This document shows, piece after piece, positions 9,491 to 40,888 of a DNA stretch of 64,000 nt (position 1 is the stretch's first letter; each line of letters opens with the position of its first letter). The notes under the pieces are model-generated. The model saw only the letters and a program-made list of their open reading frames with translations, had not been told where the DNA came from and ran no database searches. Position numbers and translations under genes: made by a program. This DNA is from Halomonas sp. A40-4 (GTDB lineage: Bacteria > Pseudomonadota > Gammaproteobacteria > Pseudomonadales > Halomonadaceae): NCBI RefSeq assembly GCF_015767635.1, contig NZ_CP065230.1:1302001-1366000 (forward strand), read 5' to 3'.

Positions 9491-10771
9491 ATGCCCATGT
9501 TGAAGAAAACCGCGTTGAACAAAACTTCCCTTGTCCTTGCCACGACGCTCGCTGGCCTCTCCATGACCGGCCAGGCTCAGGCCAATGAGGTAGAAGTACT
9601 GCACTGGTGGACCTCCGGTGGTGAAGCGCGGGCGGCTAACGTGCTCAAAGATCTGATGGAGGCTGAAGGTTACGGATGGAAAGATTTTGCCGTTGCCGGT
9701 GGTGGGGGTGAAACGGCCATGACGGTGCTCAAGTCGCGTGCCATGTCGGGCAACCCGCCCTCGGCGGCACAGATCAAGGGACCCGAGATTCAAGAGTGGG
9801 GCGAGCTTGGCTTGCTCGGCAGCCTGAATGATGTCGCTGAGGCGGAAGATTGGGATGCGTTATTGCCCGATGTTGTTGCCGACATTATGCAGTACGACGG
9901 CGAGTACGTGGCAGTGCCGGCCAACGTTCACCGGGTCAACTGGCTATGGGCCAACCCGGAGGTACTGGATGACGCTGGCGTTGAAATGCCCACTACCCTT
10001 GATGAGCTGTTTGACGCAGGCGAGGCCATTCGCGATGCGGGCTATATTCCGCTAGCGCATGGTGGTCAGGCGTGGCAGGACGCCACCATCTTTGAAAGCG
10101 TTGTGATCGGCAGTCAGGGGGGCGAATTTTATCAGCGCGCGTTAGTCGATCTTGACCCCGAGGCCCTGGGCGGCGATCAGATGGTTGATGCACTGGAGGA
10201 CTTCAAGCGGTTGCGCACACTGATGGATGACGGCATGTCCGGGCGCGACTGGAATATCGCCACCGGGATGGTGATCGACGGTGAGGCCGCCATGCAGATG
10301 ATGGGCGACTGGGCCAAAGGCGAGTTTACTGCCCGAGGTCTGACAGCAGGGGAGGACTACCTGTGCGCCCCGGCACCGGGAACCGAGGATGTCTTTGCTT
10401 TCAATATCGACAGCCTGGCCATGTTCCGGGTCAGCGATGACGACGAGCGGGAAGCCCAGCAGGCGCTGGCCCGTCTGGTACTCGAGCCCACCTTCCAGGA
10501 AGCCTTCAATCTGGCCAAGGGCTCGATTCCCGCACGGCCCGATCTGGACATGAGCGAGTTTGACAGCTGTGCACAGCAGTCGCTCAGCGATTTCCAGCGC
10601 ACCGCTGAAGAGGGCGGGCTGGTGCCGAGCATGGCGCACGGTATGGCCGTACGTGCTGATATCCAGGGGGCTATCTTCGACGTGGTGACCAACTACTTCA
10701 ACGACGACGACATGCAAGCCGAAGAAGCCGCGGAGCGGCTGGTCAACGCGGCTGAAGCAGCCTCGTTCTAA
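9491..10771 (+). CDS. gtsA: Glucose/mannose ABC transporter substrate-binding protein
   Basis: 426 residues from the ATG preceded by GGAG with a six-base spacer. A Sec signal peptide ends at QAQA, just before NEVEVLHWWTSGGE, the usual start of the mature GtsA-type sugar-binding protein. Family signatures include AVAGGGGETAMTVLKSRA, AQIKGPEIQEW and MQMMGDWAKGEF. It binds glucose (and probably mannose) in the periplasm for GtsBCD. It is the first gene of gtsABCD. A hairpin downstream may keep its message more abundant than the permease genes, as is common for binding proteins. Confidence 0.92.
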   Translation: MPMLKKTALNKTSLVLATTLAGLSMTGQAQANEVEVLHWWTSGGEARAANVLKDLMEAEGYGWKDFAVAGGGGETAMTVLKSRAMSGNPPSAAQIKGPEIQEWGELGLLGSLNDVAEAEDWDALLPDVVADIMQYDGEYVAVPANVHRVNWLWANPEVLDDAGVEMPTTLDELFDAGEAIRDAGYIPLAHGGQAWQDATIFESVVIGSQGGEFYQRALVDLDPEALGGDQMVDALEDFKRLRTLMDDGMSGRDWNIATGMVIDGEAAMQMMGDWAKGEFTARGLTAGEDYLCAPAPGTEDVFAFNIDSLAMFRVSDDDEREAQQALARLVLEPTFQEAFNLAKGSIPARPDLDMSEFDSCAQQSLSDFQRTAEEGGLVPSMAHGMAVRADIQGAIFDVVTNYFNDDDMQAEEAAERLVNAAEAASF

Positions 10772-20823: not shown

Positions 20824-21813
20824 ATGCTTGAAGATCACCGCAGTGGACCTCGCCACGACTCGCTCATGTCCCCGTACCGTGAAGATGACAGCGGTAGCAT
20901 CTGGATGGTGAGCTACATCGATATCATGACGCTGCTGGTGGCGCTGTTTGTGATCATCATTGCGGCAGCCGGTGCCACAAGCCCGGCGTGGATGGCCACA
21001 GAACCACCACCTGAACCGCTTTTTGATTCGCCTCCGCCGCTTGAAGTACCGCTGCCAGAAGCCCTTGCCAATATGCGTGATGAGCGAAGATATTCGACCA
21101 ACTGGCTGGGTGGCGAGTTGCTGACCAGCACGATCACGGCGGCTCAGGGGGTGGTTGGGCGCCCCAGACGAACCACGCGGGGTGTCCCCCCGCTGCTCGC
21201 CATGCCTGACCCGGTAGCAGAATCACCAGCCGCGTTGCCTGAACGCCGTTTGCCGATGCCCTTGGTGCCGGTTGAACAGTCAGCGCTTCAATTTCCGCTG
21301 GCTGATTATATGGTGGTCCTCACGGATAACCCCCCAAGTAATGTCGAGACGCTCAGCGATAATGCCATTGACGCTGCATTGGCCCTGAGAGAGCAGATGG
21401 AGAGCTCCCCTTATCTACCTGATTTAGAAGGTGTCGAAGTCTCACGGGTAGAAGAAGGTATCAGTTTGCGAGTGCAGGACAAGCTGCTGTTTCCCTCAGC
21501 AGAAGCCGGGTTAACCGATGGTGGAAGCGAACTGATCAGCACGTTGCTTGACACCGTCCAGCGTTATGACGGTGAAGTATGGGTTGAGGGCCATACGGAT
21601 AGTCGAACGATTGACACCCCTGAATATTCATCCAACTGGGCGCTATCCAGTGCCCGGGCGATCGCGATTGTGGAGGCCTTGGAAGAGGCGGGCGTTGCAT
21701 CGGATCGCTTACGTGCCGTTGGGCTGGCGGCTACTCAATCCCTGGCAGATAATGACACGGCAGAAGGGCGGGCGCGTAACCGCCGAGTCGAAGTTGTCAT
21801 CCACGTAGAATAA
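20824..21813 (+). CDS. Orphan MotB/OmpA-like membrane protein
   Basis: 329 residues. A single membrane helix near residues 27-48 (YIDIMTLLVALFVIIIAAAG) carries an Asp placed like the proton-conducting Asp of MotB. A long Pro-rich linker follows (about residues 50-140). The C-terminal OmpA/MotB peptidoglycan-binding domain spans about 215-329, with LLFPSAEAGLTDGG, VEGHTDSRTID and the arginine-rich NRRVEVVIHVE end. No MotA partner lies beside it. It is divergent from the two lipoprotein genes, one FlgO-like. It could be a stator-like or Pal/TolR-like energy-coupled envelope protein, or a simple cell-wall anchor. The start is uncertain; ATG at 20866 is an alternative. Confidence 0.75.
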   Translation: MLEDHRSGPRHDSLMSPYREDDSGSIWMVSYIDIMTLLVALFVIIIAAAGATSPAWMATEPPPEPLFDSPPPLEVPLPEALANMRDERRYSTNWLGGELLTSTITAAQGVVGRPRRTTRGVPPLLAMPDPVAESPAALPERRLPMPLVPVEQSALQFPLADYMVVLTDNPPSNVETLSDNAIDAALALREQMESSPYLPDLEGVEVSRVEEGISLRVQDKLLFPSAEAGLTDGGSELISTLLDTVQRYDGEVWVEGHTDSRTIDTPEYSSNWALSSARAIAIVEALEEAGVASDRLRAVGLAATQSLADNDTAEGRARNRRVEVVIHVE

Positions 21814-26020: not shown

Positions 26021-26078
26021 AATGCTTCCTGATGATGTCGATAATATGTGTTATGTGTGAGAACCAGCCACATAGTAC

Positions 26079-26105
26079 TTATCGACCCGATCAGTAAAAT
26101 CTTGA
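26079..26105 (-). promoter_or_regulatory. Sigma-28 (FliA) promoter of the chemoreceptor gene
   Basis: On the minus strand TCAAGATT-N11-GTCGATAA matches the flagellar consensus TAAAGTTT-N11-GCCGATAA at 13 of 16 positions with the exact spacing. It lies about 59 bases before the start codon. Confidence 0.7.
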
Positions 26106-26183
26106 CTAACCACACGAGTTGTCCAGTTAATAAATTTTATTGTTTACATGTAAAATATTTATATTAATTTCTTCTAATTTATT

Positions 26184-26223
26184 GGCTTGTACAAGCCAGA
26201 AGCGACAATATTGCCGCCTCTGG
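26184..26223. repeat. Palindrome and adjoining inverted repeat
   Basis: A perfect 14-bp palindrome (GGCTTGTACAAGCC, 26184-26197) is followed by an imperfect 28-base inverted repeat (26196-26223, CCAGAAGCGACAAT with two mismatched positions). It lies in an AT-rich stretch after the zinc-ribbon gene and upstream of the chemoreceptor promoter. It could stop transcription from the small gene or bind a protein. Confidence 0.4.
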
Positions 26224-26263
26224 CCGATAGCATCGTCTGAAGGGGGCGTTAAAAAGCCCAGCG

Positions 26264-26479
26264 TCAACCAGCGCGGGCGTGCGTCAGCGTATCAAGCGCA
26301 CTTCGCGGTATACCGGTGCTGGTTTGGCAGCTCAAACAGCGCAAGACGGCGCTTTGCTCGCCAGTACCTTCGAGGCGAAAGCGGGCTAAAAATACTGAGG
26401 TGGTTGATTCGAAATTACCGCAGCGGCGACAAATGATGTCAACACCGCGAACTTTGTAGTTAATGATGATAGGTTGCAC
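26264..26479 (-). CDS. Small zinc-ribbon protein, unknown function
   Basis: 71 residues from a GTG start. The strongest support is an AGGAGG ribosome-binding site five bases before it. Two CxxC knuckles, CRRC at about residues 17-20 and CLSC at about 48-51, are spaced as in a small zinc ribbon. The remaining sequence shows no membrane segment or signal. No family is recognised. It is divergent from the GGA-rich small RNA and its regulatory palindrome and may share that control region. It could be a nucleic-acid or protein adaptor. Confidence 0.65.
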   Translation of the reverse strand: MQPIIINYKVRGVDIICRRCGNFESTTSVFLARFRLEGTGEQSAVLRCLSCQTSTGIPRSALDTLTHARAG

Positions 26480-26533: not shown

Positions 26534-26643
26534 CAACCCGGCAGCGACAAGTGGTGGACTATTAACCATAGGCCATTGCGATGACATCGGTGAGCAAATT
26601 AATCATTTTTTTCGGCTTTCATATCCTGGGTTAGATAAACCAA

Positions 26644-26804
26644 GGCTTTAGAAGTGCACTGTGAACATCTACCGCAGAGGATGCGCACTAGGGAAAACCA
26701 AGCAGGACGCTTGATGGACTCAAGGATGCACGAACAGGACGTTCGTGAAGACTTTTCAAGGAAGACATGACGAAACCCCGACCAGAGATGGTCGGGGTTT
26801 TTTC
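26644..26804 (+). ncRNA. RsmY/RsmZ/CsrB-type regulatory RNA
   Basis: About 160 nt with seven GGA motifs (26679, 26692, 26705, 26716, 26724, 26737, 26760). Two sit in loops of perfect hairpins: CAAGC-AGGAC-GCTTG (26699-26713) and CACGAAC-AGGAC-GTTCGTG (26729-26747). A third GGA, at 26679, is framed by GCA/TGC. The RNA ends in a strong terminator with a T run. This is the architecture of RNAs that sequester CsrA/RsmA. TAGATA at 26632-26637 is the likely -10; the -35 is poor, as expected of a GacA-dependent promoter. The 5' end is estimated. Confidence 0.85.
26773..26803. terminator. Terminator of the GGA-rich RNA
   Basis: AAACCCCGACC pairs perfectly with GGTCGGGGTTT around a six-base loop, followed by T to 26803. 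It ends 18 bases before the stop of the convergent M42 peptidase gene. Confidence 0.92.
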
Positions 26805-26820
26805 ATGGGACACGCCGCAA

Positions 26821-28086
26821 TTAATCGGCTTTATCGTCGTTTTTTTCCTCGTCGGGTTTGTCGCTGCCCTGATGGCCGAGTGGGCTTGCCTGGTCAAGGC
26901 GTGGATGGTTATCGAGGAATTCACGCTTGAGGTCAGGCAGCTTATCCAGCGCTTTCAGTGTGTGGGTTAACGCATGGATGGCGGCCAATACATCCTGAGT
27001 ATTGCCGGTTTCCGAAATCGTGTGCATGTTGCGGATCGGGAAACCAATCGACGTGGCGGCACTGTCTACAGACGCCAACACCCCTGCCATACCGTCGGTG
27101 CCCGTATCAACGCCGACCATGTCGCGCTGCATGGGGATCTCGTTCGCCTTGGCGGCTTCGGCAATCACGCGGTTCAACTGTTCACTGGCGATCGAGCCCA
27201 CCGCCATGGTGAAGCCCTTGCCCATCTCTAACGGCTGCATGCGTTTGTCGCCGATGCCGGGAGCGGCCACGTAGTCGTGGTTCACATCGACGCCAATCAG
27301 CGCATCAGGTTTCATTTCGCCCGCCATAACGCGGCTGCCGAAACGGCCAATCTCTTCGTAGCTGGCAATCGCGAACAATACGCGTACATTTTGGGTGCCG
27401 CCTGCCTCGGCAATTAAGCGCGCTACTTCAGCGGTTACAAAGCAGCCCAGGCCGTTATCCAGATAGGCGCCGTAGAAGGTGTCGGGGCTGAAGCCGGGGC
27501 GAATAGGGCGATCAAAAATAATCGAGTCGCCGGGGCGTACGCCGAGGTTCAATACCTGCTGTTTCTTGTTTTCGCCGTGGATCTGCAGGTCCAGATAGAT
27601 CTGCTCTTTCTTCAGGCCTTTGCTGCCATCGCGCATGGCGGGGTCAGAAAAATGAATGGCGCCCAGGGCTTCCACCGTGCCGCCTTCAATGCAGCGGTAG
27701 TTGCCGGGGGCTTCCGGGTCTTCGCTAAACAGCTTCACTTCATGGCCGACCAGTACGGTGGGCAAGAAGGAGTCTGTGTTGATCCAGATCTTGCCGTCTT
27801 CACCAATGGAGCGGACCTGCATGCGGATTTTATCCGCATGGCCGATGATCATGACCTTGAACATGTCATCCTGACCGGGATGGGTGTCGAGCACGACGCC
27901 CGCATTGCCCTTGAACTGGTGCAGATGCCAGTCCGCAGGGGCGAAAGACTCAAAATGCGGTTTTAGCACGCCGTACGTCATCGCTGCCTCCAGGCCCACA
28001 GGGCTGGGGGCGGCAAGAATATCGCGCATCAGTTTGAATTGCGCGTCAGGCATCGGTTGTGTCCAGGGTTTTGCACTATCGCTCAT
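26821..28086 (-). CDS. M42-family metallopeptidase (aminopeptidase/endoglucanase M)
   Basis: 421 residues. Metal-binding residues typical of the dinuclear M42 family are visible: His in IIGHADKIRM, Asp in YGAYLDNGLG, the catalytic Glu pair in ASYEEIGRFG, Asp in IGVDVNHDY and the C-terminal His in IRNMHTISETG. It would remove N-terminal residues from peptides in the cytoplasm. The last 30 residues form a highly charged tail (DKPDEEKNDDKAD), a common halophile-like extension. It is monocistronic, convergent with the GGA-rich RNA. Confidence 0.88.
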   Translation of the reverse strand: MSDSAKPWTQPMPDAQFKLMRDILAAPSPVGLEAAMTYGVLKPHFESFAPADWHLHQFKGNAGVVLDTHPGQDDMFKVMIIGHADKIRMQVRSIGEDGKIWINTDSFLPTVLVGHEVKLFSEDPEAPGNYRCIEGGTVEALGAIHFSDPAMRDGSKGLKKEQIYLDLQIHGENKKQQVLNLGVRPGDSIIFDRPIRPGFSPDTFYGAYLDNGLGCFVTAEVARLIAEAGGTQNVRVLFAIASYEEIGRFGSRVMAGEMKPDALIGVDVNHDYVAAPGIGDKRMQPLEMGKGFTMAVGSIASEQLNRVIAEAAKANEIPMQRDMVGVDTGTDGMAGVLASVDSAATSIGFPIRNMHTISETGNTQDVLAAIHALTHTLKALDKLPDLKREFLDNHPRLDQASPLGHQGSDKPDEEKNDDKAD

Positions 28087-38434: not shown

Positions 38435-38494
38435 TTCGTGTTCAAGTGAGTCACTCACGGCTCATGCCAAGGAACGAATAGAGGAGTAGATACC

Positions 38495-38929
38495 ATGCAA
38501 GATAAAATGATGGACGCCTTCAACGCCCAGACCCGCCAAATGTTTGAGCCGATGCGCAAGATGAACTCGCTGATGCTCAACAACATGGAAAAGATGACCC
38601 AATATCAGCTGGAAGCGATGAAGCGCTACAGCCAGATGGGTACCGAGCGCCTGCGCAGCGCAACCGACGTTCAGGATGCTGAAAGCCTGCGCGACTTCGG
38701 CACGCAGCAAGCGGCGATGATGAACGAGCTGTCTCAGAAAATGCAGGAAGACGCTCGCGTGATGAGCGAGATGAGCCTTGAATTCAAGGCAGAGATGGAA
38801 AAGCTGTTTGGTGAAGCAGGCAAGCAGATGGCCGACCAGGCCAGCGCCGCGGCCAAAGGCGAGCAGCCAGCCGCCGCCAAGGGTGAGCAGTCCGCAAAAG
38901 CGAGCAGCCAATCCTCGCGTAAAAGCTGA
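38495..38929 (+). CDS. phaP: Phasin (PHA granule-associated protein)
   Basis: 144 residues, almost all amphipathic helix, rich in Met, Gln and Glu (MFEPMRKMNSLMLNNMEKMT), with an Ala/Lys/Ser-rich C-terminal tail and no cysteine. Phasins coat PHA granules and limit their size. GAGGAG precedes the start. A hairpin follows, with phaC 112 bases on, so phaP can be made in excess of the synthase. Confidence 0.9.
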   Translation: MQDKMMDAFNAQTRQMFEPMRKMNSLMLNNMEKMTQYQLEAMKRYSQMGTERLRSATDVQDAESLRDFGTQQAAMMNELSQKMQEDARVMSEMSLEFKAEMEKLFGEAGKQMADQASAAAKGEQPAAAKGEQSAKASSQSSRKS

Positions 38930-39040: not shown

Positions 39041-40888
39041 ATGTCAGCAGAGTGGGAATTACCGCCCCATGGCCTTTCTCAAGAAGAGCTGGAAGCGTGG
39101 AATGCACAGCTGAAAGATATTGGTGAGCAGTATCAAGGACTCATGCAGGATCTGTTATCGCGCATTGCGCCAAGCGAAGCGGCAGACTCCGTGTATAGCG
39201 ACATGCGGGAAAGCTTTGAAGCCGGCGCGCAGTCATTAATGCAGAACCCGACGCTATTATGGCAGACCCAGTCACGCCTGTTGCAGGACCAGTGGCTGCT
39301 GTGGCAGCAGGGCATGCGGGCGATGGCCGGTGAAGAGGTATCGCCAATGGTCACGCCGGAGAAAGGCGACCGGCGATTCAAGGACGAGGCCTGGACCCGG
39401 GAACCCCACTTCATGGCCATCATGCAGCAGTACCTGCTGTTTTCCCAGATGGTGGATGAGCTGGTGGACAGTCTGAGCGGGATGGACGAAACCCATAAGC
39501 GCAACCTGGCCTTTTATGCGCGTCAGGTCGTCAACGCGATGTCGCCGACCAACTTTGTCACGACGAACCCCGAGGTCATGCGCCGCACGCTGGAAACCAA
39601 GGGGCAGAATCTGGTGGAGGGGCTTGAGCGGCTGCGCGATGACCTGGCCAATTCTGCCGAGGGCATCAACGTCCGTATGACGGATCGCAGTGCCTTTGGC
39701 GTTGGCGAAAACATCGCCGTTACCCCTGGGGCCGTGGTGTATGAAAATGAGTTGATGCAGCTGATCCAGTACACGCCCACCACCGAAAAAACCTATAAAA
39801 CACCACTGCTGGTCGTGCCACCGTGGATCAACAAGTACTACGTACTGGATCTGCGCGAAGATAATTCGATGATGAAATGGCTTGTCGACCAGGGGCATAG
39901 CGTATTTCTGATTTCCTGGCGCAATCCGGGGCCGGAACAGCATGACATCACCTGGGCCGATTACATGCAGTTGGGCCCGATTACCGCCATGGAAGCGATT
40001 GAAAAGGCTTGCGGTGAAAAGTCCGTCAATCTGTTGAGTTACTGCGTTGGCGGCACGCTGACGGCATCGACCGTGGCCTATCTCACCAGCACACGGCGTG
40101 GCCGCAAGGTTAAATCGGTGACCTACATGGCCACCCTGCAGGACTTCCGTGATCCCGGCGATATCGGTGTATTCCTCAACGAACGCGTCGTAGAGGGCAT
40201 TGAAGAGAGTATGCAGTTGAAAGGGTATCTGGACGGGCGCTCGATGGCCTATACCTTTAACCTGCTGCGTGAAAACGATCTTTTCTGGTCGTTCTACATC
40301 AATAATTATCTGAAAGGTGAAACCCCGGCTGCCTTCGACCTGCTTTACTGGAACACGGACGGTACCAACCTGCCTGCCGGAACCCATGCCTGGTACCTGC
40401 GGCACATGTACCTGGAGAACAAGCTGGTCGAGCCCGGCGGCATCGAACTTGACGGGGTGAAGATCGATCTCAGGAAAATATCGGCGCCCAGCTATTTTGT
40501 GTCGGCCAAGGAAGACCATATTGCCAAGTGGAACAGCTCCTATTACGGCGCGCTGTTGCCAAAAGGGCCATCAACCTTTGTGCTGGGCGGTTCGGGGCAC
40601 ATTGCCGGTATCGTCAATCCGCCCCATAAGCAAAAATATGGCCACTGGACGAACGATCAGCTGCCTGAAAGCCATGAAGCCTGGTTTGAGGGGGCGACCT
40701 TCAATGAAGGGTCGTGGTGGCCTCACTGGCAGGCCTGGGTCACCGAAAATGGCTATGCGGACCCGGATCCGAAAAAAATGGTCGCCGCACGTCAGCCAGG
40801 TGAGGGCGAGTTAAGCGTGATCGAGCCCGCCCCCGGGCGCTATGTAAAGACCACGATTCCTGAAGTGTTGGGTGAAATACCTGAATAG
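39041..40888 (+). CDS. phaC: Class I poly(3-hydroxyalkanoate) synthase
   Basis: 615 residues. The catalytic triad is readable: Cys335 in the lipase-like box LSYCVGG, Asp492 in AKEDHIA, and His520 in GSGHIAG. The N-terminal 190 residues form the poorly conserved domain, followed by VTPGAVVYENELMQLIQY, a family mark. It polymerises 3-hydroxyacyl-CoA (short chain in class I) at the granule surface. No phaA or phaB lies nearby, as in other Halomonas-like genomes. Confidence 0.96.
   Translation: MSAEWELPPHGLSQEELEAWNAQLKDIGEQYQGLMQDLLSRIAPSEAADSVYSDMRESFEAGAQSLMQNPTLLWQTQSRLLQDQWLLWQQGMRAMAGEEVSPMVTPEKGDRRFKDEAWTREPHFMAIMQQYLLFSQMVDELVDSLSGMDETHKRNLAFYARQVVNAMSPTNFVTTNPEVMRRTLETKGQNLVEGLERLRDDLANSAEGINVRMTDRSAFGVGENIAVTPGAVVYENELMQLIQYTPTTEKTYKTPLLVVPPWINKYYVLDLREDNSMMKWLVDQGHSVFLISWRNPGPEQHDITWADYMQLGPITAMEAIEKACGEKSVNLLSYCVGGTLTASTVAYLTSTRRGRKVKSVTYMATLQDFRDPGDIGVFLNERVVEGIEESMQLKGYLDGRSMAYTFNLLRENDLFWSFYINNYLKGETPAAFDLLYWNTDGTNLPAGTHAWYLRHMYLENKLVEPGGIELDGVKIDLRKISAPSYFVSAKEDHIAKWNSSYYGALLPKGPSTFVLGGSGHIAGIVNPPHKQKYGHWTNDQLPESHEAWFEGATFNEGSWWPHWQAWVTENGYADPDPKKMVAARQPGEGELSVIEPAPGRYVKTTIPEVLGEIPE

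Follow-up and report, generated by a model that had tools for sequence, protein, structure and literature searches.

Most species have two to four sponge RNAs of the Csr/Rsm type, which sequester the regulator CsrA or RsmA (PMC11882849); Pseudomonas syringae has seven (PMC7911923), and Azotobacter vinelandii has eight to nine (PMC12923157, PMC7366521). In Escherichia coli, CsrB and CsrC titrate CsrA by means of repeated GGA motifs, of which they carry 22 and 14, respectively (PMC11882849). RsmX, RsmY and RsmZ of Pseudomonas (RF00195, RF00166) are about 110–130 nt long, carry several GGAs in linkers and in A(N)GGAX hairpin loops, end in a Rho-independent terminator and are preceded by GacA-type sites. 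The stem-loops SL3 and SL4 of RsmZ, with five-nucleotide A(N)GGAX loops, have been structurally solved with RsmE; RsmE has a lower affinity for pentaloops without the N nucleotide than for ANGGAX hexaloops, and GGAs in single-stranded stretches are additional binding sites in RsmZ (PMC4005645). RsmZ1-7 and RsmY of A. vinelandii are multiplied RsmA sponges activated by GacA, and the Rsm system of this species controls polyhydroxybutyrate (PHB) through phbR (PMC12923157, PMC9049629). RsmV and RsmW of Pseudomonas aeruginosa also sequester RsmA, although their transcription is independent of GacS/GacA (PMC7366521). For the Gac/CsrA system of Halomonas anticariensis, the mimic RNA was given as unknown in a 2020 review (PMC7366521).

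Here, we analysed a stretch of 64,000 nucleotides (the window) from the single 4.15-Mb chromosome of Halomonas sp. A40-4, which belongs to the genus Vreelandella. The window contains a putative CsrA-sponge RNA gene of about 137 nt on the forward strand (26668..26804). We infer the start at 26668, to within about 5 nt, from the alignment of homologues and a -10-like CACTGT at 26658..26663 (+), where relatives carry a conserved CANNGT; the 3′ end corresponds to the T run of the terminator. The original prediction had the unit begin at 26644, upstream of this start. A conserved promoter element, TATCCTGGGTTAGATAA, occupies 26622..26638 (+), at about -46 to -30. Direct reading of the sequence gives seven GGA motifs, starting at 26679, 26692, 26705, 26716, 26724, 26737 and 26760 and spanning 84 nt in total, in agreement with the seven within 90 bases first noticed; RsmZ of Pseudomonas has eight.

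In comparison with the Pseudomonas RNAs, the GGA motifs are presented in the same manner, in hairpin loops and in the linkers between them. Hairpin 1, CGC[AGAGGAT]GCG (26673..26685, +), is short and imperfect in the window copy, with a GGA in its loop, and is followed by a linker GGA of the AGGGA type whose position is conserved (26691..26695, +). The two AGGAC pentaloops on perfect stems were correctly described: hairpin 2, CAAGC[AGGAC]GCTTG (26699..26713, +), has a stem of 5 bp, and hairpin 3, CACGAAC[AGGAC]GTTCGTG (26729..26747, +), one of 7 bp. With their C-G-closed stems, these pentaloops correspond to the loops of SL3 and SL4 in RsmZ (PMC4005645). The linker CAAGGATG between them (26721..26728, +) agrees at every position with the RsmA consensus CAMGGAYG, and a further linker GGA of conserved position lies in AAGGAA (26758..26763, +). 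The unit is closed, as had been proposed, by an intrinsic terminator (26775..26803, +), with a GC-rich stem at 26775–26798 followed by the T run. A simple promoter and terminator scan missed this terminator and reported no promoter at the locus. The fold z-score of the RNA strand against shuffles is -5.1.

The density of GGA motifs was dropped as evidence: a run of seven in 84 nt turns up, on average, 1.1 times or so in a shuffled window of 64 kb with two strands counted, and since shuffled windows reach the same density, density alone proves nothing. Hairpins with AGGAC on a perfect stem are rarer, with 0.14 expected per window and three observed; two of these lie in the RNA, and the remaining one, at 10077, falls within a coding gene. 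The shuffled densities, together with mechanically called open reading frames that overlap the region, would fit a small protein-coding gene or GGAs clustered by chance. However, the overlapping reverse-strand frame is fragmented in relatives and the stems carry compensatory substitutions, which makes this the least credible of the alternatives considered here.

Conservation was examined in an alignment of 36 homologues. Six GGA positions recur across them (columns 11-13, 30-34, 47-49, 68, 81 and 104-106), and columns 68 and 81, corresponding to the linker CAAGGATG and the loop of hairpin 3, hold a GGA in 36 of 36 copies. Across the four helices, the paired fraction of cells is 93.4%, compared with 82.8% in column shuffles, and changes on both sides occur in 20 of 26 helix pairs, including all four pairs of helix 1. 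In total, 98 cells are changed on both sides, against 29.3 in shuffles, while sliding the structure along the alignment lowers pairing to 28–41%. Loops that are held while the stems drift with compensation are what selection for the presentation of GGA loops would predict. The window RNA is a free-standing non-coding unit with its own terminator and with several GGAs in loops and linkers kept by selection.

The resemblance to the described RNAs is one of function rather than of family. The original prediction named an RsmZ/CsrB-type RNA and suggested searching with the corresponding covariance models. In the Rfam search, nothing reached the gathering score. With permissive settings, the RsmY model (RF00195) gave 23.0 bits (E 0.0012; gathering 57 bits), and the PrrB_RsmZ model (RF00166, gathering 44 bits) had no match in the whole genome. 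Moreover, none of 20 loci of the RNA family tested against the Rfam Csr/Rsm models reached the gathering score. The assignment by functional kind therefore stands, while that to the RsmY or RsmZ family does not. The family was found neither in Rfam nor in the literature searched. The window RNA is most likely a new instance of a known functional kind, the CsrA/RsmA-sequestering RNAs; what surprises is how many copies the sister genera carry and that the GacA box is absent across one genus, both described below.

A DNA search recovered similar sequence in 55 of 151 Halomonadaceae genomes, the weakest of these matches covering only the terminator. A covariance model of the RNA family (R1), which scores the window RNA at 128.2 bits, was subsequently used for genome searches and matched 97 of the 151 genomes at E <= 0.001, the weakest of these being uncertain. 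In a sample of 390 genomes from across the order, strong matches were confined to the Halomonadaceae; weak matches outside the family (<=42.7 bits) were not accepted as members, and a plasmid search gave zero matches. One contig labelled as a Candidatus Zipacnadia MAG shows the hairpin pattern without a match to the model, probably by chance.

The window genome contains one copy. Searches for second copies with R1, RF00166 and RF00195 gave, among the R1 runners-up inspected, only sequences with zero to two GGAs; one RF00195 match with seven GGAs lacks the hairpin pattern, appears coding-like by eye and was rejected. Most Vreelandella genomes carry one to five copies. Eight genomes of other genera, among them Modicisalibacter, Billgrantia and Litchfieldella, hold 8–17 dispersed copies each, counting matches with the sequence read and overlaps merged: 17 distinct loci in Modicisalibacter luteus DSM 23508 (G122), 13 in G126, 12 in M. 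xianhensis (G114), 11 in G123, 10 in Billgrantia pellis (G136), 9 in Litchfieldella xinjiangensis (G014) and 8 each in G023 and G039. The highest published copy number in the literature searched is nine, as in A. vinelandii with its eight to nine, compared with 17 in M. luteus. The 90 copies read in these eight genomes have 5–11 GGAs each. The mean pairwise identity of the M. luteus copies is 59%; therefore, most of them are old paralogues. With many copies in these genera and one here, the question of sponge redundancy becomes testable by comparison. At two places in M. luteus (L106/L107 and L098/L109), overlapping model matches mark two RNA units running together, apparently forming double-length sponges.

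In many Vreelandella, two RNA copies flank a zinc-ribbon-like gene (cf. window 26021–26263), in the common order RNA copy, zinc-ribbon gene, RNA copy, M42 peptidase gene. In the window, the zinc-ribbon-like gene (71 aa; 26264..26479, -) lies upstream of the RNA, and the M42 peptidase gene, a conserved neighbour, lies convergently downstream (26821..28086, -). The zinc-ribbon-like protein, with a CxxC...CxxC pattern, is 51–90% identical among Vreelandella and, notably, constantly placed by RNA copies; it matched zero families over cut-off in Pfam and NCBIfam. The Vreelandella copies fall mainly into two clades, each with its own promoter type (GATAA or TTAATG). The window genome and its nearest relatives have kept only a copy that is GATAA-type in sequence but occupies the right-hand position.

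This arrangement bears on whether the hairpins and terminator could instead be an mRNA leader or attenuator acting in cis on a downstream gene, as a weak match to the rimP leader model (28.3 bits, E 0.013, gathering 47) might indicate. That match, however, mainly covers the terminator stem and T run, and the next gene downstream, which encodes the M42 peptidase, runs in the opposite direction, with its 3′ end at 26821. In addition, the unit is mobile between contexts, and individual genomes from related genera carry 8–17 dispersed copies of it. A cis-acting leader is hence very improbable.

A titrating RNA of this kind presupposes a CsrA/RsmA homologue, and the genome indeed encodes one canonical CsrA of 62 aa, near identical to the Halomonas hydrothermalis CsrA printed in PMC12889724. 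A GacA scoring above the curated cut-off is present as well. The best match to the BarA family in the genome is a GacS/BarA-like hybrid kinase of 923 aa, which scores 645 bits (BarA equivalog cut-off 890) and whose domain order fits a GacS-like hybrid kinase. In Modicisalibacter, extra csrA paralogues directly adjoin a divergently transcribed RNA copy. In M. luteus, this RNA lies at 20919–21067 (-) of contig C12, with csrA genes at 21226 and 21856 (+), and it is preceded by a perfect TGTAAG-N6-CTTACA GacA box, TGTAAGCATTTTCTTACA; the same arrangement occurs in G126 (contig C23) and G114 (contig C28). These csrA-adjacent copies belong to the set found by plain DNA similarity to the window RNA. 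Modicisalibacter genomes with 12–17 RNAs have two to three csrA genes, and Billgrantia with 10–11 RNAs has one.

Because the GGAs are conserved, the stems covary, csrA is present in the genome, and sister copies have GacA-type sites or lie beside csrA, we assign a probability of about 0.93 to the window RNA being a non-coding CsrA sponge, and the original proposal that it titrates CsrA/RsmA and escapes gene callers is strongly supported. We infer that it is transcribed, binds CsrA and releases mRNAs. Once transcribed, its GGA-loop hairpins and GGA linkers would bind CsrA dimers, several of which could load on one RNA by analogy with RsmZ; the dimers would thereby be pulled off target mRNAs, and the effect of CsrA on their translation would be reversed. 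The size, terminator and T run are also compatible with a base-pairing small RNA of the Hfq type, in which the GGAs would be incidental. Conservation, however, falls on the GGAs of loops and linkers rather than on any long unpaired seed, the stems covary while the GGA loops stay, and sister copies adjoin csrA; we judge a base-pairing RNA as improbable as a leader. As a probable CsrA sponge, the Halomonadaceae RNA family is a candidate for the mimic RNA of the Gac/CsrA system in H. anticariensis.

Like RsmX, RsmY and RsmZ of Pseudomonas, sister copies of the window RNA are preceded by GacA-type sites, but these are absent in the genus of the window. The 18-bp site TGTAAG-N6-CTTACA was sought at the expected upstream position with up to three mismatches. 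In the eight multi-copy genomes, it precedes 35 of 90 copies (0.9% in shuffles), and the right half-site is in place in 67 of 90 (6% in shuffles). In contrast, the box was found in none of 60 Vreelandella copies, that of the window included, and the right half-site in one. Both groups share a palindrome-like element downstream of this site, at about -40, which reads TAACCNGGTTA in the other genera and TATCCNGGTTAGATAA in Vreelandella and is present in 54 of 90 and 51 of 60 copies, respectively (3–5% in shuffles). An altered GacA was rejected as the cause of the missing box: both groups retain the recognition helix SPKTVNTYRYR, and of the 14 GacA sequences compared, one from Vreelandella and one from Litchfieldella show a single substitution each. 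Therefore, the loss of the box lies in cis.

From the promoter sequences, control of the Vreelandella RNAs probably runs through the TATCCNGGTTAGATAA element, either by GacA along an unrecognised route or by another regulator. GacA may still reach the promoter, whether indirectly or by way of a diverged site; alternatively, another regulator may have taken over. It is possible, though we put it at slightly less than an even chance, that the Halomonadaceae possess an undescribed CsrA-sponge family with up to 17 loci under GacA, of which the Vreelandella members lost the box and now answer to another regulator via TATCCNGGTTAGATAA. RsmV and RsmW are considered to have arisen independently, whereas the RNAs described here form one homologous family that lacks the GacA box in a single genus. 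The absence of the box throughout that genus offers a natural example in which a global regulator may have been rewired.

It had further been proposed that the RNA links PHB storage, glucose uptake and motility. This was derived from co-location in the window, which also contains phaC (39041–40888) and genes for a FlgO-like protein, an MCP and a sugar-type ABC transporter, and it is not supported by the present analysis. For a trans-acting RNA, proximity to a gene such as phaC, about 12 kb away, says nothing about regulation. PHB is produced with former Halomonas species. Among them, H. bluephagenesis TD01 is cited in PMC9049629, the same work in which the Gac/Rsm system of Azotobacter promotes PHB through phbR. 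RNAs of this kind raise PHB there by titrating RsmA, which sets a precedent for the proposed link. Just upstream of phaC, the leader of the gene at 38495 (window 38455–38500, +) contains CCAAGGAACG together with a GGA at the ribosome-binding site. Judged by its sequence and its position ahead of phaC, this gene looks phasin-like, and its leader is a possible candidate CsrA target, which we note as a lead only.
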